NCBI GenBank assembly: GCA_947073045.1
Contig: CAMTJU010000013.1
Coordinates: 1 to 38,984 of the forward strand
Length of the DNA stretch: 38,984 nt
DNA from: an uncultured Clostridia bacterium
Lineage (GTDB): Bacteria > Bacillota > Clostridia > Lachnospirales > CAMVHY01
Direction of reading: 5' to 3'
The notes beneath the pieces are model-generated. The model did not search any database and had not been told where the DNA came from. It saw only the letters and a list, made by a program, of their open reading frames with translations. The translations under genes were made by a program, and so were the position numbers. Numbering within the stretch: the first letter of the stretch is position 1; every line of letters starts with the position of its first letter. Shown one piece after another: positions 15,746-38,858 of this stretch.

Positions 15746-15783
15746 ATGAATATTACCTTCTTTAAATTTTGCTATAAAAACAA

Positions 15784-15799
15784 AAAATCTCAAGTTCAA
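15784..15799. terminator. Left arm of a terminator split by the IS (partner arm at 17033-17053)
   Basis: AAAAAATCTCAAG before the IS and GCTTGAGATTTTTTTT after it together make a 9-10-bp stem with T-runs on both strands, the same type as at 31031. Before insertion it would have been a bidirectional terminator between the SRP RNA and rbfA. Confidence 0.7.
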
Positions 15800-17031
15800 T
15801 GAACTGACACCAAAAAGTTAGACAAGGTTATATAAAAAAATCTATTAAGCAACCGAAAGGGCTTGCAGACTGTGAATAGCAGGAGGCAAGCCCTTAAGTT
15901 TTGCCTTAATACATCGATTATTGTAGTAGTCAAGATATTCTATTAATTCCTGCTTAAAATGTTCAATGGATTCAAACTTTTGTAAGTGGAATATTTCACT
16001 TTTCAGCAAACCAAAAAAGTTTTCTATCACTGCATTGTCCAGACAGTTGCCTTTGCGGCTCATACTCTGTCGAATACCTTTTTTATGGAGTATCTGTCGG
16101 TATTGTTCATGCTGATATTGGCAGCCTTGGTCGGAATGAAGAATGAGGTTAGTATCATTTGGAACTGTTGCAAATGTTTTATTTAGCCTAGATATTACCA
16201 TGCTCAATACAGGATGTTCTAAAATAGTATAGCTTACCAAGTTACTGCTATGTAGATCAAAGATAGACGACAGATATAACTTTTCTCCAAATGGGCTGAA
16301 CTCTGTTACATCGGTAACCCACTTTTAGTTTGGCTTTTCTGTTTTGAAATCTCGGTTTAGAAGATTTGGAGCAATTTTCCCCACATCACCTTTGTAAGAA
16401 TGGTATTTTTTCATCCTGATATGACACACAAGACCTAATTGATTCATGAGCTTTTAGACAATCTTATGATTCAAGTAAATATTTTGGTTGTGCAGCTCAA
16501 CTGTGATTCTACGGTAGCCATACCGTCCTTTGTTTTTGTAATAGATTGTCGTAATCTGTACCTTGACTAATTTATACTTGTCTGATTTATTCATTTGTTT
16601 TAAGTGATAGTAAAAGGTTGCACAGGCTAATTGAGCAATTGAAAAAAGTATTTTCAGTAATCAAGTCTTGCAAGTTTTTTAGGTATTCATTTTCTGCTCT
16701 TAATCTCTGCACTTATGCCAAGAGATCTTCATCTACTTCTTTTGGAAATTCTCGTGACGATCTGCGCTGGCTCTGGCTCGTCCACGCGCTCTATTGCCAA
16801 ACATTCTATTCCTTGTGTCAGATATGTCCTCTTCTACTTCTGTATACTTTCATGTATTATGCCATACTTTTGTTCTGCTTCATGGTATGTCATGCTTTCT
16901 TCCAATATCTGTTCTACCACCATTTCTTTATATTCTGCCGTGTATACCTTGTTTCGTTTTCTTTTTGACATAATTTAACACCCCATTTGTTTTTAGTATC
17001 CCATACTGTCTAACAAATGGGGTGCTGTTCA
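15800..17031 (-). mobile_element. Full-length but inactivated IS3-family (IS150-like) insertion sequence
   Basis: The element is 1,232 bp between imperfect terminal inverted repeats of about 25 bp: TGAACTGACACC...GTTAGACA at 15800 and, reversed, TGAACAGCACCCC...GTTAGACA ending at 17031. The minus strand encodes OrfA from 16978 (MSKRKRNKVYTAEYKEMV, an HTH-type start) and OrfB. Both carry several in-frame stops and shifts, for example TAG in OrfA near 16845 and TAA just before KWVTDVTEF. The last open part (15845-16240) retains HSDQG and VIENFFG; the three DDE acidic residues are all still encoded, in TDV, SDQ and IEN. No clear target duplication flanks it; CAA on both sides is possible. It sits in a terminator loop. 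Confidence 0.92.
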
Positions 17032-17032
17032 A

Positions 17033-17053
17033 TTTGCTTGAGATTTTTTTTGT
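17033..17053. terminator. Right arm of the terminator split by the IS
   Basis: TTTGCTTGAGATTTTTTTT is the partner of the arm at 15784-15794. The rbfA operon reads toward it. Between it and rbfA (17054-17123) I see only AT-rich sequence. Confidence 0.65.
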
Positions 17054-21749: not shown

Positions 21750-21777
21750 TAACTTTTAAATAAAAAATCCCAAGCTG

Positions 21778-22590
21778 TGAACAACACTCAATTTGTTAGA
21801 CAGTATGATATACTAAAAAATAAAAAAACAAATGGGGTGTTAAATTATGTCAAAAAGAAAACAAAACAATAGGTACACAGCAGAATATAAATAAATGGTG
21901 GTAAAACAGACAGGTATTGGAAAAAAGCATGTCATGCCATAAAGCAGAACAAAAGTATGGCATAACACATGGAAATATCCAGAAATGGAAAAGGATATAT
22001 CTGACACAAGGAATAGAAGGTTTGGCAATAGATCAACATGTATGTGATGCACAGATCGTCTACGAGAATTTCCGAAAGCAGAAAATGACTACCTAAAAAA
22101 CTTACAAGACTTGATTACTGAAAATACTTTTTTCAATCGCTCAATTATCTTGTGCAACCTTTTACTATCACTTAAAACAAATGAATAAACCAGACAAGTA
22201 TAAATTAGTCAAGGTATAGATTACAACAATCTATCACGAAAACAAAGGACGATATTGCTACCGTCAAATCACATCTGAGCTGCACAACCGAAATATTTAT
22301 CTAAACCATAAAACTTTCCAAAAACTCATGAAGAAATTAGGATTAGCATGTCGCATCAGGATGAAAAAATATCATTTTTACAAAGGTGAGCAGGTAAAAT
22401 TGATCCAAATCTTTTAAACCGAGATTTCAAAACAGAAAAGTCAAACCAAAACTGGGTCACTGATGTAATAGAATTCAATTTGTTTAAAGAAAAGCTATAT
22501 TTGTCGCCTATCATTGTTCTACATATCAGCAACTTGGTAAGCTACACCATTTCAGAGCTTCCTGTATTGAGCATGGTAATATCTATGCCA
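21778..22590 (+). mobile_element. 5' half of an IS3-family element (partner half at 36512-36893)
   Basis: It begins with the same inverted repeat as the copy at 15800-17031 (TGAACAACACTC...GTTAGACAGTATG) and runs through OrfA (ATGTCAAAAAGAAAAC at 21847) into OrfB up to the codons for LPVLSMVIS. All frames carry stops. Homology ends abruptly near 22586-22590, where a kinase-like reading frame takes over. The missing 3' part is the fragment at 36512-36893, which begins at the equivalent base. On its left is AAAAAATCCCAAGC, a terminator arm. The element and the gene fused to it come from a reciprocal exchange. Confidence 0.88.
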
Positions 22591-23731
22591 AATTAGGGTT
22601 TGGAGAATATTTTATTCATACAGAATTTGCAATTGACAATTCAGGTAAATCTGTTTTTATGAATAAAGCAAAAGGTCAACAAGGCTCGGAAGTTTTGTTA
22701 TATAAACCAACACAAAAAGCAGAATTAAGTCAATTTTTAGATTCAAATGCAAACATTGCATTTGAATTTAATGAAAAAGATGAAAATGGTAATCCAAAAT
22801 TTGAAATTAAAAATGGTAAAGTCAGTGATTTAGTTAAAAATCCTATATGTATAACACAAGAAACTCAATTAAGCGCATTAGCAATTGGAATTGTTGATTT
22901 TATTTGTATTCAACCAGATAGACATTGGAAAAATTTTTTTATTGATAAGAATGGAAAAATGACTGGTATAGATAATGATGCAGTCGGTATTGTTGATTAT
23001 GGTGAAGAAGTAACAAAAGAAATTATGAAAGTTAAAGTGCCTTTTGTAACATCTCAAATTAAAGAAAAAATTATAAATTTATATGACAATAAAGATATGC
23101 TTTTAAATTTTTTAAGAGGTAAAATGAATATAGGTATGCAGGGAAATAAAGTTATTTCAGAAATGGAAAAATGTTTAGATATGTTATATAATTACATTAA
23201 AAGTAATAATTGTCCAATTTGTGACTTCAAATATAAAGATGATTTTATAAATCATTTCTTACTAGCTCACAACAATTTTTCACAATATTGTACTAAAGTA
23301 GGTCGTTCTAATGGTTTTATTCTTTCTGAATCAAATCCAATAGCTCTTATAATTCACAATTCTATAGGAGAAACTTTTAATAGATTTGCTGGCTGTCATT
23401 ATTAAAAATATCAGACTCAATAATTGACGAATTATCAAAAAAAAGTATAGAGATAAATGAATTAGTCAAAAGTGTAGTACAAAAGGTTTCATGCAAGGAA
23501 ATTGATCGTTTAATGCTTATATTTCAAATAAATTGTGAAGATGCAATTCAAATAGTAATAAATCCAATAATCGAAAGCATTCCATATTTTAATAAATATA
23601 GTCAAAGTAAAGCAGAACGTACATATGAGAAAGTTTGTAGAAAAATTGACGCTTTATTCCCAGAATCACATCTTTTTGATTTCTCTCACACAGCAAATCA
23701 ACTACAACACCAAAATTATCAAGAACGTTAA
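22587..23731 (+). pseudogene. C-terminal half of a kinase-like gene, fused to an IS fragment and frameshifted
   Basis: From 22587 the frame reads AKLGFGEYFIHTEFAID and runs without a break to 23405; a start at 22659 within it is unlikely to be genuine. It includes CIQPDRHWKNFFID followed by GIDNDAVG, which look like the catalytic loop (D-R-H-x-x-N) and metal-binding Asp of HipA/PI3K-PI4K-like kinase folds. Near 23395-23402 the frame shifts: a second frame, open from 23384 to 23731, continues with LKISDSIIDELSKKSIEINELV and ends FPESHLFDFSHTANQLQHQ. One missing or extra base would rejoin them. The N-terminal half lies at 36893-37894 on the other strand. The normal role is unknown; it is not functional in this form. 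Confidence 0.72.
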
Positions 23732-23759
23732 ATTAAATTATAATATTTAAAAATAAACT

Positions 23760-23789
23760 GATCACATATATTACTGTGATCTTTTTTTG
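23760..23789 (+). terminator. Rho-independent terminator after the kinase-like gene
   Basis: GATCACA, loop of about 7 nt, CTGTGATC followed by TTTTTTT. It follows the kinase-like frame by about 30 nt. Confidence 0.82.
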
Positions 23790-23941
23790 TGCAATAAGAA
23801 ATTTATATTATAAAAAAATTTTTTAAATAAAATTGTTGAATTTAAGTAAGACAAAATATATACAAAAGCAAATTTATCAGTGCAAATTTTTTTTAAAAAT
23901 TTATATGTAACTCTCTGTTTTTTAATTGTAATATAAAAGTG

Positions 23942-23953
23942 TAATCCGGATTA
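23942..23953. promoter_or_regulatory. Perfect 12-bp palindrome (TAATCCGGATTA), possible operator
   Basis: The exact palindrome TAATCCGGATTA lies 24 nt before the first DUF1659-like start, just upstream of AAAGGAGG. A TATAAA overlaps its right edge. I cannot place a convincing -35. A regulator binding here could control the four-gene operon. The stretch 23790-23941 is AT-rich without other visible features. Confidence 0.45.
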
Positions 23954-23977
23954 TAAAAAACTAAAGGAGGAATACCA

Positions 23978-24187
23978 ATGGCAGTAACAAATACAATAAA
24001 AGCAACAAAATTTCAATTAAAATATGCAAACAATAAAGGTTCTTATACTTTTTCTGACTTAAAAAATTCAGGCACTACAGATGATAAAATATTAGCTACT
24101 GCACAAGCTTTTGCCTCAGTGCAAGAATCAAGTACAGAAAAAATTTATAAGCTTATTGACAACAAATTAGAAAAAACTCAAGCATAA
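23978..24187 (+). CDS. DUF1659-like small protein (copy 1)
   Basis: This 69-residue soluble protein has no signal peptide, TM or cysteine. Its general pattern (MAVTNTIKATKFQLKY..., a short Gly-rich turn, then a helix FASVQESSTEKIYKLID) matches small DUF1659-type proteins that sit next to DUF2922 genes in Firmicutes. Function is unknown for the family. A consensus AAAGGAGG ribosome-binding site suggests strong translation. It heads a four-gene tandem with strong ribosome-binding sites before each start. Confidence 0.75.
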   Translation: MAVTNTIKATKFQLKYANNKGSYTFSDLKNSGTTDDKILATAQAFASVQESSTEKIYKLIDNKLEKTQA

Positions 24188-24201
24188 GGAGGATAATAAA
24201 A

Positions 24202-24429
24202 ATGAATAAAAATTATTATGAATTTGTTTTTGTAAGTGATCAGGGTAAAAATATAAATTTAAAGATACCAAATGCTATTGAAACTTTCGATACTGACCAA
24301 TTTGCAGAAGATATGGATTTAATAATTGCATCAAATGTAATTTTAACTTCTGCTGGAAAACCTGTAGCAAAAAGATTCGTTAAATATATTGAACCTAAAA
24401 TTATTGAAGTTACAATCCAAAATAATTAA
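24202..24429 (+). CDS. DUF2922-like small protein (copy 1)
   Basis: This 75-residue protein has the DUF2922 shape: YEFVFVSDQGKNINLKIPNA (two strands around a G-K turn, then the IPNA motif), a helical DTDQFAEDMDLIIASNVI, and a final strand KYIEPKIIEVTI. No signal peptide or cysteine is present. The function of the family is unknown. It follows the DUF1659-like gene by 14 nt with AAGGAGG upstream. DUF1659 and DUF2922 genes commonly travel as a pair, so a joint role is likely. Confidence 0.78.
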   Translation: MNKNYYEFVFVSDQGKNINLKIPNAIETFDTDQFAEDMDLIIASNVILTSAGKPVAKRFVKYIEPKIIEVTIQNN

Positions 24430-24452
24430 TACAATAAAAGGAGGAAATAAAA

Positions 24453-24644
24453 ATGGCAACATTAAATTTGATAGATACAAAATTGACTTTAAAATTTTCC
24501 GAACAAAGCTATTCAAACAGTAACATAAATAATGCTGCTAGCGACCAAACCATTTACGATTTAGCAGAATTAATGGAAAAATATCAGTTATCAGCACCGA
24601 CTGAAATCGGTAAAACTTTGAAATACGAATTTATAATTAGTTAA
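24453..24644 (+). CDS. DUF1659-like small protein (copy 2)
   Basis: This 63-residue protein (MATLNLIDTKLTLKFSEQSY...) has the same layout as the first gene: an N-terminal strand pair, a helix (DQTIYDLAELMEKYQLSA) and a final strand (KTLKYEFIIS). Sequence similarity to copy 1 is low. The assignment rests mainly on size, pattern and its position before a second DUF2922-like gene. AAAGGAGG lies at ideal spacing. Confidence 0.65.
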   Translation: MATLNLIDTKLTLKFSEQSYSNSNINNAASDQTIYDLAELMEKYQLSAPTEIGKTLKYEFIIS

Positions 24645-24656
24645 GGAGGTTAAAAA

Positions 24657-24896
24657 ATGAATCCTAATTTTAAAATTACTTATAAAACAAGTGATAATGA
24701 AATATTTGAACTTACAATACCTAATGCATTTAATTTTGATCCAGACGTTGCAGAAAATGTTACAAGAGTCAATACAGCTGCTAAAAACATTATGAATGCA
24801 AATGCAATAGAGACAGGCTGCGGAGATTTAAGCAGCATTGAATCAATAGTTTATTGCAAAAATGATGTTACAGTGCACGATTTGGCAAATCTATAA
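24657..24896 (+). CDS. DUF2922-like small protein (copy 2, diverged)
   Basis: This 79-residue protein keeps the opening of copy 1 (FKITYKTSDNEIFELTIPNA, with TIPNA matching KIPNA) and a following helix region (DPDVAENVTRVNTAAKNIM), but the second half differs and contains two cysteines (ETGCGDLSS and VYCKND). It follows copy 2 of the DUF1659-like gene by 12 nt with AAGGAGG upstream. Divergence between the two pairs suggests an old duplication with specialisation. A terminator follows. Confidence 0.65.
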   Translation: MNPNFKITYKTSDNEIFELTIPNAFNFDPDVAENVTRVNTAAKNIMNANAIETGCGDLSSIESIVYCKNDVTVHDLANL

Positions 24897-24928
24897 TTTA
24901 AATCATCTAAAATTTATCACATAAGGAA

Positions 24929-24957
24929 AATCTCGGCAAATGCCGGGATTTTTTTTA
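24929..24957 (+). terminator. Rho-independent terminator of the DUF1659/DUF2922 operon
   Basis: AAATCTCGGCA, loop AA, TGCCGGGATTTTTTTT, a stable stem of about 10 bp with a G-T pair and a T-run. Confidence 0.88.
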
Positions 24958-25027
24958 CAATAATTATCTTTTACATGAAAGAAAATTTTTTTGCAATAAC
25001 ATGTTTTTTCAAATAAAACTTTTATAT

Positions 25028-25067
25028 AAAAAAAGGATACCGTTTTATAAGCGATATCCTTTTTTTC
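25028..25067. terminator. Rho-independent terminator of the Xaa-Pro peptidase transcript
   Basis: AAAAAAAGGATACCG, a loop of about 9 nt, CGATATCCTTTTTTT, with one mismatch in the stem. On the minus strand it lies 31 nt after the peptidase stop. Confidence 0.82.
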
Positions 25068-25097
25068 TGCAATCCAAATAAAAATTAAAATAATAAT

Positions 25098-26162
25098 TTA
25101 ATTAATTACTTGCAAATCTTTTGGATATTTATTTAAAATCTCGTATCCATTCTCGGTTACCAAAACTAAATCCTCTATCCTGACTCCCAATTTATCTATT
25201 AAATATATACCTGGCTCAATTGAAAAAATCATTCCAGGCTTTAACAAATCATAATTGTCTTGTGATACAGCCCCGAATTCATGACACTCGATTCCGATTG
25301 AATGACCAGTTCGATGAATAAAGTTTTTGGCATATCCATTATCTTCAATGAAATTTCGCGCCGCTAAATCTATTTGGCTAAATTTTGCGTCCGGCTTGAC
25401 CTCATTTATTGCCTTTTGGTTTGCATGCAAAACTATATCATAAATTTTTTTGTCAAAGTCTGACGCATATTTATAAAAAAATGTGCGAGTCATATCTGAG
25501 CAATAATTATCTTTTATAAATCCCATGTCAATTACAATACAATCGCCTTCTTTTAATTTTGTATCATTAGGTACGTGATGCGGCTCGGCAGCATTTTTAC
25601 CAAATGCTATTATCGGGTCAAATGAAAATGCATCAAGCTCCAATTCTTTTTTTATCGATTTGAGTATTTCTAATAATTCTAATTCAGTTTGATTGGCCTT
25701 AATATTTTTTACAAGAAGAGACATTGCTTCATCATTAAGGCGCGAAGATTCACGCATTAAATTAATTTCGTCTTCTGTTTTTACCAGGCGCACATATTCC
25801 AAAATATCGCTTACTAAATAATTAGCGTTAGTTGATTTAATAAGCGGTAGTAAAAATTTTGCAGGAAAGTTTTTATCAATTAAGACTGTTTCATTTTTTA
25901 TTGTACCTGATAAAATGCTAACGGGGTCATCATCATCTGAGTAATAAACAACTTCAACATTAGGAATATTTTTCATATCAAATAATTTGTTTACAAAAAG
26001 TTTTTGCGTATTATCTGTGCTGTTTATATACATTACGTAAAGTCTTTCGCCGGGTTCAATTAAATTTCCTGTCAAATAGAAAATGGCGAAAGGGTCGCAA
26101 ATCAAAAGCTGCGAACAATTTTTTTGATTCATTACATTATTTACACGTTCAATTTTATTCAT
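25098..26162 (-). CDS. Xaa-Pro peptidase (M24B, PepP/PepQ-like)
   Basis: This is a cytosolic metallopeptidase (354 aa) that cleaves peptides before Pro. An N-terminal creatinase-like domain (about 1-125) precedes the pita-bread catalytic domain. The metal ligands are visible: Asp in VIDMGFI, Asp in YCSDMTRTF, His in HRTGHSIG, Glu in FSIEPGIYL and Glu in VRIEDLVLV. The frame continues upstream to 26216, but AAAGGAGTGG directly before ATG 26162 fixes the start. It overlaps the 3' end of the upstream permease gene by 8 nt, so the two form a likely peptide/amino-acid utilisation operon. Confidence 0.94.
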   Translation of the reverse strand: MNKIERVNNVMNQKNCSQLLICDPFAIFYLTGNLIEPGERLYVMYINSTDNTQKLFVNKLFDMKNIPNVEVVYYSDDDDPVSILSGTIKNETVLIDKNFPAKFLLPLIKSTNANYLVSDILEYVRLVKTEDEINLMRESSRLNDEAMSLLVKNIKANQTELELLEILKSIKKELELDAFSFDPIIAFGKNAAEPHHVPNDTKLKEGDCIVIDMGFIKDNYCSDMTRTFFYKYASDFDKKIYDIVLHANQKAINEVKPDAKFSQIDLAARNFIEDNGYAKNFIHRTGHSIGIECHEFGAVSQDNYDLLKPGMIFSIEPGIYLIDKLGVRIEDLVLVTENGYEILNKYPKDLQVIN

Positions 26163-27555
26163 TATTGCCACTCCTTTTTTCATAGTTATTCCATAGCCAA
26201 AATCCCATAGATACAAACAAAATTGAACCGCCGATTAATTCTATTTCATACCATATATTTGCCATTAATGTGTCCATTATAGGAACAAGAGATAAAACTA
26301 CACCAGCTATAGTAACTATTAGTGTCATGTATGAAATCCAAATGCAGGTTGAATTTTTTTTAGCCATTGAAAATTGTTTGTCTACATTTGGGTGCGTCTT
26401 CTTTAATTTTATATATGCAAAAATCAGCATAACGTACGGAAATAATGAAACTAAAGACGTCATAGTGACTAATATATTGTAAATTATATCGACACCTGGA
26501 AGAAATTCGGTTAATATCATTATAATTGTCACCAATATAGTTTGAAATAAGACTGCTCTTTCAGGTATGCCATGACTGTTAAGTTTAGTCAATTTCTCAG
26601 GGAATACACCTTCTTTAACTGAGCCAAAAAGCATTTTTATTGCTGAAGCTGTGTATACAATAACGGCGCCAAAAGATGCAAGAGATATTCCAAATGCTAC
26701 AAGCATTACAAGCCATTGGCCAATTCCCCATGAAGATGATATTGTAGCAATTGCATCAAGTAAACCACGTGAAGCTGTAATATCTTTTGGATCGAGAACA
26801 ATAGTCATAGCCAATGAACCAAGTACGTATAAAAGTGAAGTAATTGCAGCGGAAATAATTATTGCTCTGGGAAAATTTTTTCTCGCATCTTCAATTTCTG
26901 TAACAAAATTAGCAGTAATTTCAGCTCCCGAAAGCCCAAACATAATAGTCGATATAGCAATGAGCGAATCAGCATTTATTTTTGGAATAAAATTATGTAA
27001 TGAATAATCAGAAGCAATATTATGTTTACCCAATATAACACCAAAAAATGCAAGCAACATTAAAATTATTGTTGGAATGGTTGAACCAAATGCACCGATA
27101 TTGGTAAAAAATTTCCCAAATGTCATACCTTTTGTAGATATGTAGGATACTATCCAAAAAACTACTAGCGAAAATATGAATATAAATGATTTATTTTGAG
27201 CAAGCTCGGGTTTTCCTATAACAAAAGTGATATTGACGGAAAAGAAAGTAAGAAAAGCAGTATACCAAAAAACTCTGGCAATCCAATTTAGCCATGAAAC
27301 AATAAATCCATATTTTTCACCGTAAGCCTGTTTAACCCATTCATACATACCGCCATCTTTGGGATAAGTAGAGGTTAATTCCGCACACATAAGGGAGATT
27401 GGTACAAAAAATATAAAAGTTATTATAATCCAGGTAGGGATTGCGCCAAGGCCAAGACCAAAACTTGAAGCAGTTGATTTTGCAATCCAGCGTATGCCGT
27501 ACAAAGCAGAAACATTCATAAAAACTAATTCCCATAAACTTATTTTTTTATTCAC
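26155..27555 (-). CDS. APC-superfamily amino acid permease/antiporter
   Basis: This is an integral membrane transporter (466 aa) with about 12 hydrophobic segments. The start LWELVFMNVSALYGIRWIAKS and the loop AELTSTYPKDGGMYEWVKQAYG are typical of the glutamate:GABA antiporter-like branch of the APC family. The conserved TM8-type GAEITANFVTEIEDARKNFPRA and the helix LPYV-type ending are also present. The substrate cannot be read from sequence. GTG at 27555 is chosen because GGAG lies 10 nt before it. Other in-frame codons upstream to 27606 lack a ribosome-binding site. Its 3' end overlaps the peptidase start by 8 nt. Confidence 0.9.
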   Translation of the reverse strand: MNKKISLWELVFMNVSALYGIRWIAKSTASSFGLGLGAIPTWIIITFIFFVPISLMCAELTSTYPKDGGMYEWVKQAYGEKYGFIVSWLNWIARVFWYTAFLTFFSVNITFVIGKPELAQNKSFIFIFSLVVFWIVSYISTKGMTFGKFFTNIGAFGSTIPTIILMLLAFFGVILGKHNIASDYSLHNFIPKINADSLIAISTIMFGLSGAEITANFVTEIEDARKNFPRAIIISAAITSLLYVLGSLAMTIVLDPKDITASRGLLDAIATISSSWGIGQWLVMLVAFGISLASFGAVIVYTASAIKMLFGSVKEGVFPEKLTKLNSHGIPERAVLFQTILVTIIMILTEFLPGVDIIYNILVTMTSLVSLFPYVMLIFAYIKLKKTHPNVDKQFSMAKKNSTCIWISYMTLIVTIAGVVLSLVPIMDTLMANIWYEIELIGGSILFVSMGFWLWNNYEKRSGNNE

Positions 27556-27660
27556 GCAAACAAAACTCCTTTTATATAATATTCTATCAAAGTTAAATTG
27601 TATCACATAAGGCTATTTAAACTCAAAATTTTTTGAAACATTACACAAAGCATAATATAT

Positions 27661-27691
27661 AAAAAAAAATCAAGCTTAGCTTGATTTTTTG
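27661..27691. terminator. Rho-independent terminator of the recD2-comF transcript
   Basis: AAAAAATCAAGC, loop TTA, GCTTGATTTTTT, a perfect stem of about 12 bp counting A-T pairs. It lies 12 nt past the comF stop. Confidence 0.88.
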
Positions 27692-27702
27692 TATTGTTTA
27701 CT

Positions 27703-28425
27703 TTAATTATTCTTTGGCTCATTTTTTTTAACAGTAATGGAAAGTGTAAAACTAATGACGGATTTAGCACCAGCATCTTTTAAAAACTGTGCACACTTAT
27801 TTATTGTGCTGCCGGTTGTAAATATATCATCTATCAGCATTAAATTTAATCCTTTAACATTTTTTGCACTGAAAGCATTTTCCAAATTATTTTCTCGTTC
27901 ATGAGAATTTAAATGCCACTGTGGTTTTGTATTTTTTATTCTTTTCAAAATATCTGCGCGCATTGGCAAATTCATTTTGCGTGCAATTTCTTTTGCCAAT
28001 ATTTCGGATTGATTAAATCCTCTGTTTCTTCTGCGAATTTTATGTATGGGTACTGCTAAAATATAATCCACATTTTTTATCACATCAAAATTTATTTCAT
28101 GCGCCATAATTTTTCCTAAACCTTTACCAATTGCCGGATGATTTTTGAATTTGAACCTGTGTATCAAATCTTGCATAAGCTCGTCATATACAAACAATGA
28201 ATAATTTTTGTCAAAATAAAAATTTTTCTTCGTGCATATTGAACACAATTTGCCATGCTTAATTGGGCGAGAACATTTTTCACATCTTCTGCCAGTTATG
28301 GTTTTAAATAAATCTTTGCATTCATCGCATAAAAATTTTTTAGAGCCAAACTCAATTATATTGTCACACACAATACATTTTGGCGGATAAATTAAATCTA
28401 AAATAAAATTTATAATAATAATCAT
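27703..28425 (-). CDS. ComF-family phosphoribosyltransferase-like protein
   Basis: ComF-type proteins (240 aa) combine a zinc-binding N-terminus with a phosphoribosyltransferase fold and aid DNA uptake or repair in competent bacteria. Two Cys pairs, CIVCDNI and CDECKDL, are followed by CEKC and CSICTKK. Further on are AVPIHKIRRRNRGFNQSEILAKEIA and the PRPP-loop motif LMLIDDIFTTGST near 195-207. The start is uncertain: ATG at 28425 directly abuts AAAAAAGG, too close to serve as its own site, so a slightly later non-ATG start is possible. It lies 244 nt downstream of recD2 on the same strand. Confidence 0.92.
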   Translation of the reverse strand: MIIIINFILDLIYPPKCIVCDNIIEFGSKKFLCDECKDLFKTITGRRCEKCSRPIKHGKLCSICTKKNFYFDKNYSLFVYDELMQDLIHRFKFKNHPAIGKGLGKIMAHEINFDVIKNVDYILAVPIHKIRRRNRGFNQSEILAKEIARKMNLPMRADILKRIKNTKPQWHLNSHERENNLENAFSAKNVKGLNLMLIDDIFTTGSTINKCAQFLKDAGAKSVISFTLSITVKKNEPKNN

Positions 28426-28436
28426 CCTTTTTTGTA

Positions 28437-28464
28437 TTGAATAATTTTTATATTATGCTAAAAT
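28437..28464 (+). promoter_or_regulatory. Predicted extended -10 promoter of a small gene
   Basis: TTGAAT (28437-28442), 16 bp, TAAAAT (28459-28464) preceded by TATGC as an extended -10. The start falls near 28471, about 16 nt before the ATG at 28487. Confidence 0.6.
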
Positions 28465-28486
28465 TTTTGTAGAAGGAGGGAAAATA

Positions 28487-28681
28487 ATGCAAAATCCAAG
28501 CGATTCAAGTACAGATACAATAATAACAAAAAGTATGTCTGAAAAAATGGGAAAAGCTAAAATTGAAGCTAAAAAGTTAGAAATCATGGAAGAAAATAAA
28601 AAAAAATTAAAAGAAGAAACTGGACACGATTATAATACAGGCGCTACAAAATATTTAACATTTAGAAAATCATTTCGTTAA
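28487..28681 (+). CDS. Small charged hypothetical protein
   Basis: This is a 64-residue soluble protein without a signal peptide, cysteine or TM. Residues about 16-46 form a Lys/Glu-rich amphipathic helix (KSMSEKMGKAKIEAKKLEIM and onward). The tail GHDYNTGATKYLTFRKSFR is basic. It has its own promoter and an excellent AGAAGGAGGG ribosome-binding site, so it is very probably expressed. Its last 12 nt overlap the recD2 stop in a convergent tail-to-tail arrangement. It lies on the opposite strand between recD2 and comF. I do not recognise a family. Confidence 0.75.
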   Translation: MQNPSDSSTDTIITKSMSEKMGKAKIEAKKLEIMEENKKKLKEETGHDYNTGATKYLTFRKSFR

Positions 28682-30904: not shown

Positions 30905-31028
30905 AAATCTTTAACTCCAATTTTAATTATAAGCTCCAAACTTTTTGAAAAAATTCAAAGCTTTAATTTAAAAGTTAACTCTTATAGATTATAACATTCC
31001 TGATAAAATTTATTAAATCTTTTACAAA

Positions 31029-31061
31029 AAAAATCTCAAGCAAATACTTGAGATTTTTTTG
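31029..31061. terminator. Intact CTCAAG-type terminator
   Basis: AAATCTCAAG, loop CAAATA, CTTGAGATTT, a perfect 10-bp stem with T-runs on both strands. It ends the DUF512-der-plsY transcript. Its sequence is nearly the same as the terminators disrupted by IS copies. Confidence 0.9.
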
Positions 31062-31113
31062 TAAAGTTTCTAGTTAAACTTTTTTCAAAAAACTTATTTT
31101 TGATTTTTAAAAT

Positions 31114-31686
31114 TCAAAAGAAATTGGGTTCATTTCCATTAATAATCCGTTTAATATTTAAATAATGCTGCCAAAAAGCTAAGGTGCTAATAAAAATAAA
31201 TAATAAGAATATTTCCATTGTACAATTAAAAAAAATAAGAGGTAATGAAAATGAAAAAACAAGCGAGCCAACAGAAATTTTTCGCGAGATTAAAACAGCA
31301 GCAATTCCAAAAACATAGGCAATAAACGCAAGATGCCAGTTAAATACAAGAACTAGGCCAATTGTAGAAGCAATACCTTTGCCGCCTTTGAAATTCAAAA
31401 AAAATGGGAAGTCGTGACCCAAAATAACACCGACTCCAGCCCATATTCCTGCCAAATCACTTTTGAATAAAGTTTTGCACAAAAGATAGGCAAGTACAGA
31501 TTTTATTATATCGATAATAAAGACGATAATTCCTGCTTTTTTGCCCAGTACACGGTTAACATTAGTTGTTCCAGCATTACCGCTTCCATAATTTCTAATA
31601 TCTATCTTGTAAAATTTGCCTAAAAAAAAGGATGTTTGAAAACATCCGAAAATATAGCCAATTAAGATTGAATACAACCTGAACAT
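31114..31686 (-). CDS. plsY: Acyl-phosphate:glycerol-3-phosphate acyltransferase
   Basis: PlsY is a polytopic membrane enzyme (190 aa) that transfers a fatty acyl group from acyl-phosphate to sn-glycerol 3-phosphate, the first step of phospholipid synthesis. Active-site motifs are visible: GSGNAGTTNVNR near 36-47, GHDFPFFLNFKGGKGIAS near 97-114 and the third region with conserved polar residues toward the C-terminus. About five hydrophobic segments are present. The frame begins further up at a TTG (31698), but GAGGTG lies between, so ATG at 31686 is chosen. It overlaps der by 1 codon region (start beyond der's stop at 31695) with a spacing of 8 nt. Confidence 0.95.
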   Translation of the reverse strand: MFRLYSILIGYIFGCFQTSFFLGKFYKIDIRNYGSGNAGTTNVNRVLGKKAGIIVFIIDIIKSVLAYLLCKTLFKSDLAGIWAGVGVILGHDFPFFLNFKGGKGIASTIGLVLVFNWHLAFIAYVFGIAAVLISRKISVGSLVFSFSLPLIFFNCTMEIFLLFIFISTLAFWQHYLNIKRIINGNEPNFF

Positions 31687-31694
31687 AACGCACC

Positions 31695-33014
31695 TCAATC
31701 TTTATACTTATTTTTAGCAATAAAATGGATAGGTACTCCATCAAATCCAAATGAATTTCTAATTTGATTTTCCAAATATCTGCGATATGAAAAATGCAAA
31801 AGCTGACCATTGTTTACAAATAATACAAATGTCGGCGGACAAACTGCTGCTTGTGTTGCATAATATATTTTTAATTGCTTACCTTTGTCAATTGCAGGCG
31901 GATTCATTACCATTGCTTCAAGTATCAATTCATTTAAAATTCCTGTTTTAACACGCATATTAGCATTTGCCCAAACAGTTTTTATTAAATCAAAAATTTT
32001 AATAAGTCTTTGACCCGTCAATGCAGACACAAAAATATGAGGTGCATAATGCATGTACCCCATTTTTTTATAAATATTATCCGAAAATTTGCGCACTGTA
32101 TTGTTATCTTTTTCTACCTTATCCCATTTATTAATTGCAATAATGGTTGGCTTTCCTTTTTCATGCGCTATACCTGCTATTTTTGTATCTTGCTCTGTTA
32201 TTCCATCTTCCGCATTTATAACCAATATACATACATTTGCTCTTTCAATTGCATTAATCGCGCGCACGATACTGTAATATTCAAGTGATTCTTTTATCTT
32301 ACTTTTTTTTCGTATTCCAGCGGTATCTATAAATATATATTTTTGACCGTCTTTTTCATAAAATGCATCAACTGCATCACGAGTTGTACCTGGTATATCA
32401 CTTACAATTGAACGTTTTTGACCAAGTATTTTATTTATCATAGAAGATTTTCCCACATTTGGCTTACCAACAATAGCAACCTTAATAATATTATCATCTT
32501 CATCAGTGCAAGATATACTGAAATTTTTAACTATTTCATCTAACAAGTCACCTATACCCAAACTTTGTTCTGCCGACACAGGGATAGGTGTGCCAAATCC
32601 CAGCGAGTAAAACTCGTAAATCATATCCAAATCACGGCGAAAATTATCAATTTTATTTGCTACAAGCAAAACTTTTTTATCGAATCGACGTAAAAGTTGT
32701 GCAACTTCCATATCTAATGCAGTAATTCCATCACGGGCGTCCACTACAAATAAAACCAAATCTGCAGTTTCAATAGCAATTTGTGCCTGTTCAAATACAA
32801 ATTTAGGGATTAAATCGTTTGAAATCGGTTCAAGACCGCCAGTATCTATTAAAATGAAATTGTAATTAAGCCAATCAGCATCAGCATAAATTCTGTCGCG
32901 TGTAACTCCTGGCGTATCTTTAGTAATAGAAATTTTGCGACTTGCTAATTTATTAAATAAAGTAGATTTACCGACATTAGGACGACCTATAACTGCAACA
33001 ATAGGCTTAGACAT
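31695..33014 (-). CDS. der: Ribosome-assembly GTPase Der (EngA)
   Basis: Der is a tandem GTPase (439 aa) needed for 50S subunit assembly. Domain 1 has GRPNVGKSTLFNKL, DTPGVTRDR, DTGG and NKID. Domain 2 has GKPNVGKSSMINKI, DIPGTTRDAVD, DTAGIRKK and NKWDKVE. The C-terminal KH-like domain ends KLKIYYATQ-type (KQLKIYYATQAAVCPPTFVLF). Length and domain order are normal. GAGGAGATTGT precedes the ATG. It lies between a DUF512 gene (9 nt upstream) and plsY, an arrangement conserved in many Firmicutes. Confidence 0.97.
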   Translation of the reverse strand: MSKPIVAVIGRPNVGKSTLFNKLASRKISITKDTPGVTRDRIYADADWLNYNFILIDTGGLEPISNDLIPKFVFEQAQIAIETADLVLFVVDARDGITALDMEVAQLLRRFDKKVLLVANKIDNFRRDLDMIYEFYSLGFGTPIPVSAEQSLGIGDLLDEIVKNFSISCTDEDDNIIKVAIVGKPNVGKSSMINKILGQKRSIVSDIPGTTRDAVDAFYEKDGQKYIFIDTAGIRKKSKIKESLEYYSIVRAINAIERANVCILVINAEDGITEQDTKIAGIAHEKGKPTIIAINKWDKVEKDNNTVRKFSDNIYKKMGYMHYAPHIFVSALTGQRLIKIFDLIKTVWANANMRVKTGILNELILEAMVMNPPAIDKGKQLKIYYATQAAVCPPTFVLFVNNGQLLHFSYRRYLENQIRNSFGFDGVPIHFIAKNKYKD

Positions 33015-33023
33015 ACAATCTCC

Positions 33024-34328
33024 TCAAAACAAAATTTTATTCAAGAAATCACGGCCGTTATTTTTTACTATCATAATTTTTGTTTTCAGCTGTTCCTCAA
33101 GATTTTGCACAGATAAATCATCGAGCATAATTTGCGAATTAGCTTTAAACATGTTTTCTGATAAAAGTAAATAATCGCCGATATCTTTCATCTTCATTAT
33201 ATCAATAATGTTGCGACCTGTCAATAAACCCGATACAGTTATGTTTTCACCGAAAAATTCATTTTTAATACGATAAACATTTACATCAATCTTATTGGAA
33301 AGCTTATTAATTTTTTTAACTTTGTCAAGGATAAAATCATATGCAGCAAAGCCTGTTGCTATTGAAACTTTCTTAAAAATCACGCGCGATTTATCAATAT
33401 TTTTAATTGCCAAATCAAATTCATTTTGAAACAAAGAAAGCATTCCCACTCCATTTTCAAGCTGTGGAAAATCTTCATAATCTTCATAATCAGGGATAGG
33501 CAAATTAGCTTTAATATAGAACTCATCAGCTGCAAACACAAATTTGGTATTAAATTTTGCAGATAATTTTTGTTGCCAATTTTTGATTTGTTTAATAATT
33601 AATTTTGCATCGTCCGAATTAAAATTCTCTAATGCAAATAAATTTTCACGAAACTTTGAAAGCCCGGCTGGCACTATTGATAAACTTTGGGCATTTGGAA
33701 TAAATGCAGTCAAGTCGCTAATAGTTTTGTCCAGGCTTTCTCCATCATTTATATTCTTGCACAGCACAATTTGAAAATTCAACTTTATATTTGCATTATT
33801 TAATTTTTGTATTTGCAAAAGGATATTGCGCGCGGCAGGATTCTTCAACATAAATTGACGAAGGTCAGGGTCTGTTGTATGTACAGAAATATTTATAGGA
33901 GAAAGGTGATAAAAAATAATGCGATCAAGGTCTGCATCACTCATATTTGTCAATGTAACATAATTGCCAGACAAAAATGATAATCTCGAATCATCGTCTT
34001 TAAAATAAAGAGTAGAGCGCATATTTTTAGGAAGTTGGTCTATGAAACAGAATATACATTTGTTTTTGCAGCTCATTTGTCCATCCATCAATCCATCTTC
34101 AAAAATCAATCCCAAGTCCTCATACTCATCTTTTTCAATTTCGTACACACATTCTTCACCATTATTATTGCGCACACAAATATTAATAAATTCATCTTGA
34201 ATAAAATATCTGTAATCGAAAATATCTTTGATAATATTGTCGTTAACGGATAAAAGTACATTGCCCGGTTCAATACCAATTTCCTGAGCAATGCTATCTT
34301 TTTCAACATCAATTATTTTATGCTCCAA
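33024..34328 (-). CDS. DUF512-family radical-SAM-like iron-sulfur protein
   Basis: This 434-residue protein carries a PDZ-like N-terminus (KIIDVEKDSIAQEIGIEPGNVLLSVNDN) and then a Cys motif CKNKCIFCFIDQLPKNMR, typical of the radical-SAM-like core of this family, followed by LYFKDDDSRLSFLSGNYVTLTN, another conserved segment. The C-terminal about 200 residues are the DUF512 region. The substrate is unknown; synteny with der and plsY is conserved. Translation likely starts at TTG (34328), because ATGGAGCT upstream serves as the ribosome-binding site; ATG at 34343 is the alternative. Confidence 0.9.
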   Translation of the reverse strand: MEHKIIDVEKDSIAQEIGIEPGNVLLSVNDNIIKDIFDYRYFIQDEFINICVRNNNGEECVYEIEKDEYEDLGLIFEDGLMDGQMSCKNKCIFCFIDQLPKNMRSTLYFKDDDSRLSFLSGNYVTLTNMSDADLDRIIFYHLSPINISVHTTDPDLRQFMLKNPAARNILLQIQKLNNANIKLNFQIVLCKNINDGESLDKTISDLTAFIPNAQSLSIVPAGLSKFRENLFALENFNSDDAKLIIKQIKNWQQKLSAKFNTKFVFAADEFYIKANLPIPDYEDYEDFPQLENGVGMLSLFQNEFDLAIKNIDKSRVIFKKVSIATGFAAYDFILDKVKKINKLSNKIDVNVYRIKNEFFGENITVSGLLTGRNIIDIMKMKDIGDYLLLSENMFKANSQIMLDDLSVQNLEEQLKTKIMIVKNNGRDFLNKILF

Positions 34329-34354
34329 GTTTAACAGCTCCATTTTTTATATTT

Positions 34355-34384
34355 ATTATAAACCAAACGAACTAAAATCGACAA
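34355..34384 (-). promoter_or_regulatory. Predicted promoter of the DUF512-der-plsY operon
   Basis: On the minus strand TTGTCG (34379-34384), 18 bp, TATAAT (34355-34360). The start would fall near 34348. It is divergent from the promoter at 34430-34458. Confidence 0.5.
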
Positions 34385-34429
34385 ACATTGGTTTTCTATA
34401 TGCATTTGGTATTTTCAGATTTTGTTTCT

Positions 34430-34458
34430 TTGATTATTTTTTGTGTATGTTCTATAAT
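34430..34458 (+). promoter_or_regulatory. Predicted sigma-A promoter of the membrane protein/AI-2E operon
   Basis: TTGATT (34430-34435), 17 bp, TATAAT (34453-34458). A second TATAAT at 34465-34470 lies just after it. Confidence 0.68.
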
Positions 34459-34489
34459 TTATTTTATAATTTTGTATTGAGGAGCCATT

Positions 34490-35224
34490 ATGAAAAAAAA
34501 TAATGATATAAATTTAATTGGGATAATAAAAAATTCTGTTCGAATTTATTTTAAAAACATTTTTGCGTGGATAATGGTTTGTTTTTTGGTATATACTCCA
34601 ATGTTTGTTTGCGATTACCTTATGCCGGAACAATTTCAAACGCCTGCTAATGTATTCAATGCGGTTTATTCATTTAATATTTTCAAAATGATGATTTATT
34701 TTTTACCGCCAATTTTATTTAATCCGCTTGCAATTGCTGTAATTGCTTGTGTTGTTGAGCAAAGTTTGTATAATAAAACAATTGACGTAAGCTATGTTTT
34801 AGATAATTCATTATTAAAGTGGAAGGATCTTGTATATTCTGCAGTTATATATTATTCAATAGTTTTGTTTACAAGTCTTTTGATTATACCGTCAATATAT
34901 TTTTCAGTTTCATTTTATTTTTATATACCTATTATTGCACTTAGTAAATATAAAGGAATGAAAGCAATGTTAATTAGCAAATTAGCAATTATGGGAAGAT
35001 GGTTCAAGGCAGCAGGTTTAATTTTTCTTTCGATGATTTTATCGACAATGATAAGTTTGTTTATAGAAAGATTTTTGCCGATGAAATCAGAAAATTTATT
35101 TATTACTAAGATAATTTTTAGTTTGGTATGTAAATTTATAGACATATTTTTTGAAATTGTGTTGATAGTATGGTTTTTGAGTACGTCAGTAATTAAAGTA
35201 GATGAAAAAGAGGTTGGGATATGA
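34490..35224 (+). CDS. Hypothetical polytopic membrane protein
   Basis: This 244-residue protein has about six hydrophobic segments (near 22-44, 67-90, 115-145, 150-160, 172-192 and 208-232). It starts with a cytoplasmic stretch (INLIGIIKNSVRIYFKN) reminiscent of glycerophosphoryl-diester-phosphodiesterase-associated or DUF975-type membrane proteins, but the similarity is not enough to name a family. No catalytic residues are evident. TGAGGAGCC precedes the ATG. Its stop overlaps the next gene by 4 nt (ATGA), indicating coupled translation. Confidence 0.85.
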   Translation: MKKNNDINLIGIIKNSVRIYFKNIFAWIMVCFLVYTPMFVCDYLMPEQFQTPANVFNAVYSFNIFKMMIYFLPPILFNPLAIAVIACVVEQSLYNKTIDVSYVLDNSLLKWKDLVYSAVIYYSIVLFTSLLIIPSIYFSVSFYFYIPIIALSKYKGMKAMLISKLAIMGRWFKAAGLIFLSMILSTMISLFIERFLPMKSENLFITKIIFSLVCKFIDIFFEIVLIVWFLSTSVIKVDEKEVGI

Positions 35225-36393
35225 AATTACCTTGGGATGAGAAATATTTAAAAATATCTTTTCATGTTATTTTTACTGCTGTAGTTGTATATTTACTTGT
35301 GCACGTGATTAATTTGGGTGCATATATTTTTTCGCATTTAGACAAAATTATCAATAACTTTTCGCAATTTTTATCATCTATATTTTCTGTATTTTCTATT
35401 TTATTTTGTGCACTTATTATTTCATATTTACTTGACCCATTAGTCAATCGTTTGCAAAATTTTTATAATGAATACACAAAAAAGCATGATTTGAAGAAAC
35501 GAACTGCCGGTACAATTTTAGCTTATCTTATAGTTTTTTTTATCATTTTCGCATTTATTTTTGTTTTGGTTAAAAAGATGGATGTAAATCATAATGTAAA
35601 CTTTGTAGAAAATTTTTCGGCGGCTGCAATATCTACAATTAACGATTTAAATGAAAGTTATTTGCTAGCGCAGGAAAAATTAAAACAATGGGGAATGCTC
35701 GAATATGTCTCAGATTTTGTGAATACGGCGCTTAATTCATTGATAAAATTTTTCCGTAGTCTCTCAAACAATATAATATCAACTTTAACTTCGGCCGGTA
35801 GCAAAGTTTTAGATTTGTTTTTGTCATTAGTAGTAGCTTTTTATTTATTACGTGACAAAGTTGAATTTCAAAACAAAGTTTCTGATGTATCAAAAGTTTT
35901 TTTGCCGAAAAAAATTTATTTTTTTCTTACGAATATTTTTGAAGATATCCATATAATATTTTCAGGATATGTAAGTGGTCAGTTGCTTGACGCTTTCATT
36001 ATGTCAGTACTGTTAAGTTTATGGCTTAGCATTGTACATATAAAATTTGCTGTTATGATTGGAATGTTTTCAGGATTTGCAAATGTCATTCCGTATTTTG
36101 GTGCATTCACTGGTTTCATTTTATCAATATTTAGCGCACTTATTGAAGGCGAGCCAATTAAAGCATTATATGCTGCATTAGGTGTAATGGTTTTACAGCA
36201 GTTTGACGGAATGTTTATTGTTCCCAAAGTCGTTGGAGAACGTGTTGAATTAAGTCCCTTTCTTGTAATATTATCACTTTCTGTTGCAGGCAAGCTCTTT
36301 GGTATTTTGGGAATGCTTTTAGCCGTTCCGGTATGTGCCGTGATTAAAATTTTTCTTTCAAGATTTATTGCGCGCCTCAAAAATAAGATTTAA
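35221..36393 (+). CDS. AI-2E (YdiK/PerM) family transporter
   Basis: This 390-residue membrane protein has seven or eight hydrophobic segments. The family features are the early DPLVNRLQNF segment, a long extracytoplasmic or periplasmic middle (about 125-185), and the C-terminal signature with NVIPYFGAFTGF, QQFDGMFIVPKVVGERVELSPF and GKLFGILGMLLAVPV. Members have been linked to efflux of AI-2, sodium/proton exchange or other solutes, so the substrate here is open. GAGGTTGGG precedes the ATG that overlaps the previous stop. Confidence 0.94.
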   Translation: MKLPWDEKYLKISFHVIFTAVVVYLLVHVINLGAYIFSHLDKIINNFSQFLSSIFSVFSILFCALIISYLLDPLVNRLQNFYNEYTKKHDLKKRTAGTILAYLIVFFIIFAFIFVLVKKMDVNHNVNFVENFSAAAISTINDLNESYLLAQEKLKQWGMLEYVSDFVNTALNSLIKFFRSLSNNIISTLTSAGSKVLDLFLSLVVAFYLLRDKVEFQNKVSDVSKVFLPKKIYFFLTNIFEDIHIIFSGYVSGQLLDAFIMSVLLSLWLSIVHIKFAVMIGMFSGFANVIPYFGAFTGFILSIFSALIEGEPIKALYAALGVMVLQQFDGMFIVPKVVGERVELSPFLVILSLSVAGKLFGILGMLLAVPVCAVIKIFLSRFIARLKNKI

Positions 36394-36423
36394 ATCTTTT
36401 ATGATAAAAATTAATTTGTTTTT

Positions 36424-36450
36424 GCTTTTCTTTAGAAAAAGAAAAGTAAA
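36424..36450. repeat. Imperfect palindrome (GCTTTTCTTT...AAAGAAAAGTAA)
   Basis: It lies just after the AI-2E gene and is related to the palindrome at 38873-38902. Another short one (GTTTCATGAAAGAAACC) is at 36473-36489, followed by the terminator arm AAAAAAATCTCAAC. The three together fill 36394-36511. Confidence 0.5.
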
Positions 36451-36492
36451 CATAAACATCTATTTTATAGCAGTTTCATGAAAGAAACCAAA

Positions 36493-36511
36493 TAAAAAAA
36501 TCTCAACTAAA
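36493..36511. terminator. Terminator arm next to the IS half (partner arm at 21764-21776)
   Basis: AAAAAAATCTCAAC borders the IS end here; on the other side of the original insertion lies AAAAAATCCCAAGC at 21764-21775. Brought together they pair as an AATCTCAA-type stem with a few changes, like the intact CTCAAG terminators. Confidence 0.55.
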
Positions 36512-36893
36512 TAAACTGACTCCCAAAAGCTAAACAAAGTTATATTAAAAAATCTATTAAACCAACGAAAGGGTTCGCAGTCTGTGAATAACAGAAGGCA
36601 AGCCCTTAAGTTTTGTCTTAATACGCCGGTTATTGTAGTAGTCAAGATATTCCCATTAAGTCCCGCTTAAAATGTTCCATGGATTCAAACTTTTGAAAGT
36701 AGAATAGCTCACTTTTCAGCAAACCAAAAAAGTTTTCTATCACTACATTGTCCAGTCAGTTACCTCTGCGGCTCATGCTCTGTCTAATACCTTTCTTATT
36801 GAGCATCCGTCGGTATTGTTTATGCTGGTATTGCCAGCCCTTGATCGGAATGAAGAATGAGGCTAGTATCATTTGGAACTGTTGTAAATGCCT
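36512..36893 (-). mobile_element. 3' half of an IS3-family element (partner half at 21778-22590)
   Basis: The minus strand encodes the transposase C-terminus from TTVPNDTSLILHSDQG to the inverted repeat TAAACTGACTCCC at 36512, in degraded form. Matching copies elsewhere have one or two more codons before this point (NKTFATVPND at 15845-16240). Homology stops near 36893, where the kinase-like reading frame begins. The break corresponds to the break in the 5' half at 22586-22590. Confidence 0.87.
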
Positions 36894-37894
36894 TACATGT
36901 CTGCTACAAAATTTTCAATAAATTGTCTGCATGCTGAATCTACGTAATACATTTCACCTGAGATTACACTTGAATTTAAATATCCCATTGCTTCTATCTG
37001 ATTAAAAGAAATATTATCTTTAATAATATTATCTGGTATAGTATAAAATATTTGACCTAGTTTAACAAATTTTTCATTACCATTTTCGTCTTTAGTAGAA
37101 TAAACTGTGCTAACCTTACCACTATGTGTTTCAGAATTAGGATTTTTTTCAATGTATTGTATGGTATTTTCTTTAGAAGATAAAATTTCATGGATTGAAA
37201 TTTTTGTATTAAGATCATTATTTTGAATATTTAATAATATATTGTCTACAAATATTTTGTTTTCATGAAATTGTACTAATTTGTGACTAAGTTTAGTTAC
37301 TCTTGCTAAATCTACTTGAAGTATTGTGAGTTGAGCATTAGTTTTTATCAAATTTTTTTCTATACGATTTAAACGAAATTGCTTAAAAAACCAAACATTT
37401 TCTAAGTTTTTTTTCTTTTCTTCGAGATATTCAATTTCTTCTTTTAAATTTTTAATTTCAGAAGATATTTTTTCATAAATTTCTTTTTCCCAAATAGTTC
37501 GCCAAATGCACGAATTTAGAGCATCTATTACTCTTTGATAATTATCAGAAATTTCTCCTATCTTTTCAAAATCTTTTTTTACATTTTCTAAATCTTTATT
37601 TTCCAAATTTTTTTCCATATCTTCATTATTTTTACGTGGATTTATTAAAAGACTTAAAGAATTAATATTTTTATTTGTAGAAAGTGTTTGTTTCATTAAT
37701 AGATGTAAAGACTTAGTTGTTTTATCTAATGTCTGTCAAACTTCTTCTTCTTCTTGTTCATCTGATGTTAAATTTAAATTTAATTCTACATTTTCTACAT
37801 CATTTTCATTGAATTTATCAAAAAAATCACTGGAAAATAGGTCATTGTATATATATTTTGTTTTTCTAATTTTAGTAGTATTTTCTTCTGCCAT
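36893..37894 (-). pseudogene. N-terminal half of the kinase-like gene, with an in-frame TGA and fused to an IS
   Basis: Reading from ATG at 37894 (AAGGTATGTG upstream) the frame is MAEENTTKIRKTKYIYNDLF, an acidic stretch ending in EEEEEV-type residues, then TGA at codon 53 (37736-37738), then on in the same frame through LDKTTKSLHLLMKQTLSTN to 36893. A second ATG at 37696 could restart translation. Residues 90-200 are predicted coiled coil (IKNLKEEIEYLEEKKKNLE). The end has VSTVYSTKDENGNEKFVKLG (kinase N-lobe-like strands) and SACRQFIENFVADM, after which an accidental TAA from the IS side closes it. The rest of the gene is at 22587-23731. Confidence 0.72.
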
Positions 37895-38827: not shown

Positions 38828-38858
38828 AAAAATCTCAAGCACCTGCTTGAGATTTTTG
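38828..38858. terminator. Bidirectional CTCAAG-type terminator
   Basis: AATCTCAAGCA, loop CC, TGCTTGAGATT with A/T runs on both sides. It lies between convergent ispD and the SLH-protein gene. Confidence 0.9.

Follow-up and report, generated by a model that had tools for sequence, protein, structure and literature searches.

A split insertion sequence and a split kinase-like gene at the ends of a 14.3-kb block: the probable outcome of one old illegitimate inversion in an uncultured Clostridia bacterium

Background

How does a bacterial chromosome come to carry, some 14 kb apart, two parts of one insertion sequence (IS), each abutting one half of what seems to be a single gene? The question is raised by a contig from an uncultured Clostridia bacterium (CAMTJU010000013.1, assembly GCA_947073045.1), 38,984 bases long and hereafter called the window, which makes up contig C13 in full; the draft genome to which it belongs has 36 contigs, 1,166,444 bases and a completeness rating of 100%. 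The window holds two complementary pieces of an IS3-like element and two complementary pieces of a kinase-like gene, laid out as would be expected after a single inversion. An earlier note on this DNA had proposed one crossover between the IS and the gene in opposite orientation; such a crossover indeed explains the four pieces, their strands and their complementarity, and we consider it very probable that one old, conservative, reciprocal illegitimate exchange produced two pairs of pseudogenes here. The pieces and the block between them are as follows.

21778..22593, plus strand: 5' part of the decayed IS3-like element, with the left terminal inverted repeat (TGAAC...) and a broken transposase frame; from genome DNA matches and alignment with seven copies
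36512..36894, minus strand: 3' part of the same element, with the right terminal inverted repeat near 36512; from DNA matches and alignment with seven copies
15800..17031, minus strand: unsplit reference copy of the IS, with DNA identity of 80% and 88% to the split pieces
22590..23405, plus strand: C half of the kinase-like gene, with DRH...N and a GIDND stretch; hhalign to seven homologues, E 4e-18
36899..37894, minus strand: N half of the kinase-like gene, from open reading frames, with an in-frame TGA at 37736-37738; R-to-G spacing in common with seven homologues
22594..36894, no strand assigned: inverted block of 14,301 bp, with a junction at either end

Results and discussion

The two pieces of the IS complement each other to the base. 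The left piece comprises the first two thirds of the element and the right piece the last third, and DNA searches of the own genome listed further full and partial copies, seven of which were aligned with the halves. When the inversion is undone in silico, a check proposed at the outset, the joined halves recover the whole extent of the element as seen in these seven copies, with internal gaps only away from the join. The alignment script had cut the halves at 22588 and 36893 and so left six empty columns at the join; the omitted bases, 22589-22593 and 36894, number exactly six and fill them. The left half then ends ATGCCAAAT and the right half starts AAGGCAT, with no base or codon lost (MVISMPN / KAFTTVPND); at this site one of the other copies reads ATGCTAAATAAAGCAT, and the remaining six deviate at one or two positions. 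Thus, the claim that both IS halves break at the same place is borne out, and the breakpoints first given (22586-22590 and 36893) lie only a few bases off the refined IS ends, 22593 and 36894.

In the unsplit copy, the rve, rve_2 and rve_3 profiles (DDE integrase core) score above their Pfam cut-offs, and NF033516 (transpos_IS3) is the top model for a frame of 131 residues (E 1.2e-39), at 136.6 bits against a curated cut-off of 160. In the split copy the scores are lower: of three left pieces scanned, two give E 4e-12 and the third has no IS3 match, and one right piece gives E 9e-7 (46, 46 and 28.4 bits, all below the same cut-off). Because the frames are broken, we use the wording "IS3-like", an assignment made from the rve profiles together with NF033516 as the best model, although all frames score below the cut-off of the latter. 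Terminal inverted repeats are present, with the ends TGAACAGCACCCC... and TGAACTGACCCC..., and the flanks are decayed, with no target duplication called. By identity, the nearest relative of both halves is the unsplit copy in the window (0.864 and 0.886).

The gene pieces fit together within a residue. The C half aligns significantly with a sparse set of homologues and carries a DRH...N and a GIDND stretch that, by analogy, resemble a catalytic loop. Against PF00454 (PI3/PI4 kinase), it reaches E 0.005 and 17.2 bits, short of the cut-off of 27.1, and among the three homologues scanned from a family member (genome G001), the best attains 21.7 bits, the others being below the cut-off or matchless; because the cut-off is not reached, we call the protein kinase-like only. 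Matches to the C half occur in 6 of 392 sampled genomes of the order, the own genome included, and no second copy of either half was found in the own genome at E <= 1. The seven homologues, from five other genomes, are each a single open frame without stops, 563-835 residues long. Two independent genes in relatives, which the earlier note had named as grounds for abandoning its reading, are thus not what the relatives show. The homologues make up a sparse family of long kinase-like proteins (L055, 4164-6041; L056, 5599-7683; L057, 1706-3394; and L085-L088), with three copies in G001.

What ties the halves together is a conserved stretch that spans the split (R, K or H, and G 12 residues on) and is gapless in all seven homologues in a MAFFT alignment. 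The halves in the window yield the same R-to-G spacing provided that the N half stops at D, whose codon ends at 36899, and the C half starts with K, at 22590. The motif pattern, with its fixed spacing, was written after the sequences had been inspected, and the gapless alignment provides a separate view of it. The join first written, ...FVADM followed by AKLGF, was right in that the halves can be joined, but it is two residues too long for the homologues, which ...VAD / KLG fits; that the halves form one helix, with this tighter join, is plausible. Four things, then, carry the case for the two gene halves: the way the conserved stretch is spaced, the significant match of the C half, the orientation of the pieces and the single-frame homologues. 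In a MAFFT alignment in which the halves were entered as separate rows with three homologues, parts of both halves were misplaced, and this alignment was discarded. Directly after the C half lies a frame, 23384-23728, without detectable similarity to the homologues; that it is the frameshifted tail of the kinase-like gene is only a guess.

Could the IS and the gene have been broken by separate events, so that their reciprocity is only apparent? The genome does contain many fragmentary matches to the IS. However, truncations that arose independently would need to agree to the base in the 1.2-kb IS and to within one residue in the 1.8-kb gene, on matching strands, and none of the seven other aligned copies is broken at the join site, a count that covers the aligned copies, the partial copies being unexamined. 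Separate breakage is, accordingly, very improbable. Another candidate is homologous recombination between a pair of inverted IS copies, one of which lay within the kinase-like gene; in IS-rich genomes, IS-by-IS recombination is a usual route to inversion. It predicts, however, a full hybrid IS at each end, whereas half an IS abutting half a gene is found at both, and we give this route even less credence.

The two junctions can be balanced to single bases, and each is marked by a short word.

22590..22593, plus strand: left junction word AAAT (IS to C half of the gene), from the sequence
36895..36898, minus strand: right junction word ATGT (N half of the gene to IS), opposite the AAAT of the left junction

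The left junction runs from IS to gene as ...TATGCC-AAAT-TAGGG..., and the right junction, on the minus strand, from gene to IS as ...GCAGAC-ATGT-AAGGCAT.... If AAAT was the word exchanged, each product is as long as expected, with a net gain or loss of 0 bases at both junctions. The four pieces, their complementarity, their strands and this balance of lengths are matters of observation; from them we infer a single event at the shared word AAAT, by short staggered-end joining or topoisomerase subunit exchange rather than RecA-dependent homology. The word suggests microhomology but is no proof of it: because shared runs of at least four bases arise at random IS and gene positions in 3.0% of trials (probability about 0.030), the microhomology is suggestive only. 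The longer word ATG-CCAAAT, proposed initially, survives in part, in that AAAT is the common word, with two bases differing at one junction, while ATG-CC is IS sequence.

A small inverted repeat, ATGCC-AAATAA-GGCAT as read from the junctions, has the IS-side crossover in its loop. The repeat (22585-22593 and 36885-36894) varies among copies: where the split IS has ATGCC...GGCAT, three of the seven other copies have ATGCT and six have AGCAT, and the changes are complementary across the two IS halves that are now separated.

Junctions of this kind may also arise as artefacts of whole-genome amplification or of assembly, and the genome is a draft in 36 contigs. In one study of multiple displacement amplification, inverted joins account for more than 85% of chimeras, and short complementarity is frequent at them (PMC1855051). 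In the same study, chimeras with inverted joins carry an intervening deletion (PMC1855051), and because the two joins here are loss-free, one amplification chimera would be insufficient; for two reciprocal joins to arise without loss at the same pair of points, two accidents would have to match. As for assembly, exact repeats shared by the 1-kb stretches around the junctions reach 12 bp at most, in either orientation, and lie off the joins, which makes a repeat-driven error unlikely. Moreover, exact words common to the split IS and any of the 11 other copies or fragments compared do not exceed 45 bp, and the joins are IS-to-gene, not IS-to-IS. The possibility of an assembly artefact, raised in the earlier note, was thus tested indirectly, and neither a long repeat at the joins nor a lack of reciprocity came to light. 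An artefact is, in our estimate, improbable, if somewhat less so than separate breakage.

The block itself has the length previously given (about 14.3 kb), and its contents, as identified by Pfam, agree with the earlier list and comprise small DUF1659 and DUF2922 genes, an M24 peptidase, an amino-acid permease, a comF-like gene, RecD2, PlsY, Der (EngA), DUF512 and an AI-2E family gene. The small genes form a row of four, alternating between DUF1659 and DUF2922, at 23978-24893, two of the four scoring above the Pfam cut-off. The orientation of all four IS and gene pieces is compatible with one inversion of this block. The kinase-like gene might conceivably be switched by reversible, site-specific inversion, inasmuch as the block is bounded by two inverted 4-bp words. 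However, words of 4 bp are too short for this, the N half of the gene contains an in-frame stop, the IS is decayed, and no site-specific recombinase was found among the window proteins scanned, which do not include every open reading frame. We regard such a switch as the least probable of the alternatives.

The IS ends adjoin arms of a palindrome, a feature to which the earlier note had also appealed.

21763..21775, plus strand: palindrome arm left of the IS (AAAAATCCCAAGC), from a word scan
36496..36508, plus strand: other palindrome arm, outside the IS (AAAAATCTCAACT), from a word scan

The palindrome consists of AAAAATCTCAAGC, a 4-nucleotide loop and GCTTGAGATTTTT, its arms lying outside the IS ends. 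With up to two mismatches allowed, 19 occurrences of the arm word were counted in the window, compared with 4.25 expected; further arms are at 276-288, 15783-15795 and 17036-17048. Empty copies of the palindrome are found in the window at about 31034 (31028-31059) and 38833 (38828-38858), and altogether there are three in the 158,984 bases scanned (the window and six 20-kb stretches), compared with none in 20 shuffles of the window. In the same scan, seven of the eight IS ends found have an arm just outside, both ends of the split IS among them; only the eighth end, which is a poor match, lacks one. The palindrome, judged by these adjacencies, appears to be an insertion target of the IS3-like element. 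The arms invoked in the note are indeed present, but other IS copies share them, and their pairing is weak evidence of common origin; because the arms are generic to IS insertion sites, it is not special evidence for the inversion.

Several observations weigh against the single inversion or withhold support from it. First, the N half alone shows no significant resemblance to the seven homologues, at E 0.15 and with 9 of 200 whole-half shuffles scoring as high; for its last 100 residues, the count is 15 of 200, and against the three G001 homologues, 144 of 200. The best alignment to three homologues, by hhalign and insignificant, ended at the matching RQ column, and in a placement test, 10 of 200 shuffles fell within 10 columns of the expected spot; the position of the N-half R in the conserved column comes from a reading by eye and this insignificant alignment. 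Second, the right junction reads ATGT where AAAT is expected, two of four bases differing, and the IS-side word is AGAT, not AAAT, in four of the seven other copies, which makes the inferred IS-side word less certain. Third, the trees of the two IS halves are weak and conflict, the left half grouping with the copy in the window (support 0.80) and the right half with two copies on contig C4 (0.23); the correlation of identity profiles between the halves, 0.40 for the split IS and between -0.48 and 0.89 for other copies, is uninformative. Fourth, GC skew betrays no strand switch, at -0.057 in the block, -0.049 in the left flank and -0.025 in the short right flank.

Finally, gene order in relatives is silent on the event. 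We compared 31 window proteins with 20 loci fetched with Der, for which 13 listed matches, from metagenome-assembled genomes, reach E 1e-150 or better at 53-66% identity under the titles Clostridia, Eubacteriaceae, Defluviitaleaceae or Eubacteriales. An affiliation of the genome with a clade of termite-protist endosymbionts was considered but not adopted, because the family to which that clade is assigned has many cultured members (PMC10579323), whereas the family of the window has one other genome in the set used. At 12 of the 20 loci plsY adjoins der, preceded by DUF512 at 10 of these 12; rimP, nusA, the AI-2E gene and ispD have matches at none of the 20, and pepP-like matches fall at two unrelated loci (L073 and L076). 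The order common to the named relatives is DUF512-der-plsY only, inside the block, and because nothing else is common to them, gene order cannot confirm the event. In G001, which is 76% complete, der-plsY adjoins a frame with a weak IspD match (E 3.3e-4), by eye a nucleotidyltransferase of another kind; the AI-2E match is on a 3.6-kb contig among other frames, and NusA has no match in that genome. Overall, the 20 loci and G001 are uninformative for the inversion: the flanking order is unshared and the ancestral order unseen.

The single inversion, which we continue to favour, might have proceeded as follows. At the start, a full-extent IS3-like element, probably already dead, would have lain beside the rimP-nusA-infB cluster, and the kinase-like gene next to ispD, at a distance of about 14.3 kb and with the AAAT word of the gene oppositely oriented. 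The DNA would then have been cut at the AAAT words, by two double-strand breaks or by a single paired cleavage, and rejoined crosswise with no net change of bases, flipping the intervening block and leaving at each end half the IS and half the gene. All pieces now look like pseudogenes, and we propose no present function for them.

As to the enzymes, no match to Ku was found in the genome, and among 14 control genomes only Bacillus subtilis matched; of the end-joining genes, the search covered Ku alone. Either of two routes, the rejoining of ends cut with a stagger or an exchange between complexes of topoisomerase, would fit a conservative exchange at a word of 4 bp. Type II topoisomerases cleave with a stagger of 4 bp, which is the length of the shared word here. 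A possible but, on balance, unlikely extension is that the join preserves, as a fossil, an exchange of topoisomerase (gyrase) subunits, conservative and reciprocal at a 4-bp word, in a genome without a Ku match and with the IS-side cut in the loop of the small inverted repeat. If that were true, inversions in such reduced genomes could serve as records of topoisomerase cut sites.

Relation to known systems

The locus is ordinary in kind: it represents no new system but a known type of genome accident, albeit an unusually legible one. The copies of the IS and the single-frame homologous proteins let the junctions of a non-homologous inversion be balanced to the base, and the case illustrates that one event can yield two pairs of pseudogenes in a small genome. 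There is, besides, a warning for annotation, in that a pair of "genes" separated by 14 kb may turn out to be the halves of one. Nothing functional or categorically new follows, and the strength of the case is the exactness with which the event can be read. Among the papers listed on non-homologous inversions at IS or in endosymbionts, we recognised no like case, which is no proof of absence.

The closest general class is that of chromosomal inversions by illegitimate recombination, with which the present case has in common reciprocal joins with a few shared bases and the disruption of both parental loci, and from which it differs in that both joins are preserved, without net loss, and that IS copies and homologous proteins serve as rulers. 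With regard to mechanism, interface swapping by gyrase is a published proposal for illegitimate recombination (PMC11164529); whether recombination by gyrase proceeds via subunit exchange is, according to that paper, not known. DNA gyrase-mediated recombination could yield a conservative reciprocal exchange without homology, like the one considered here.

With regard to the insertion sites, the IS3-family elements IS1397, ISKpn1 and ISPsy8 insert into repeated palindromes (PMC1525189). The resemblance is to IS1397 and ISKpn1 in repetitive extragenic palindromic (REP) sequences (PMC1525189), in that here, too, IS ends adjoin arms of a repeated palindrome. Unlike the palindromes reported there for the three elements, however, the palindrome in the window is terminator-like, with A/T tails, and not a REP sequence; the element is decayed; and the host, judged by Der, is a relative of uncultured Clostridia.

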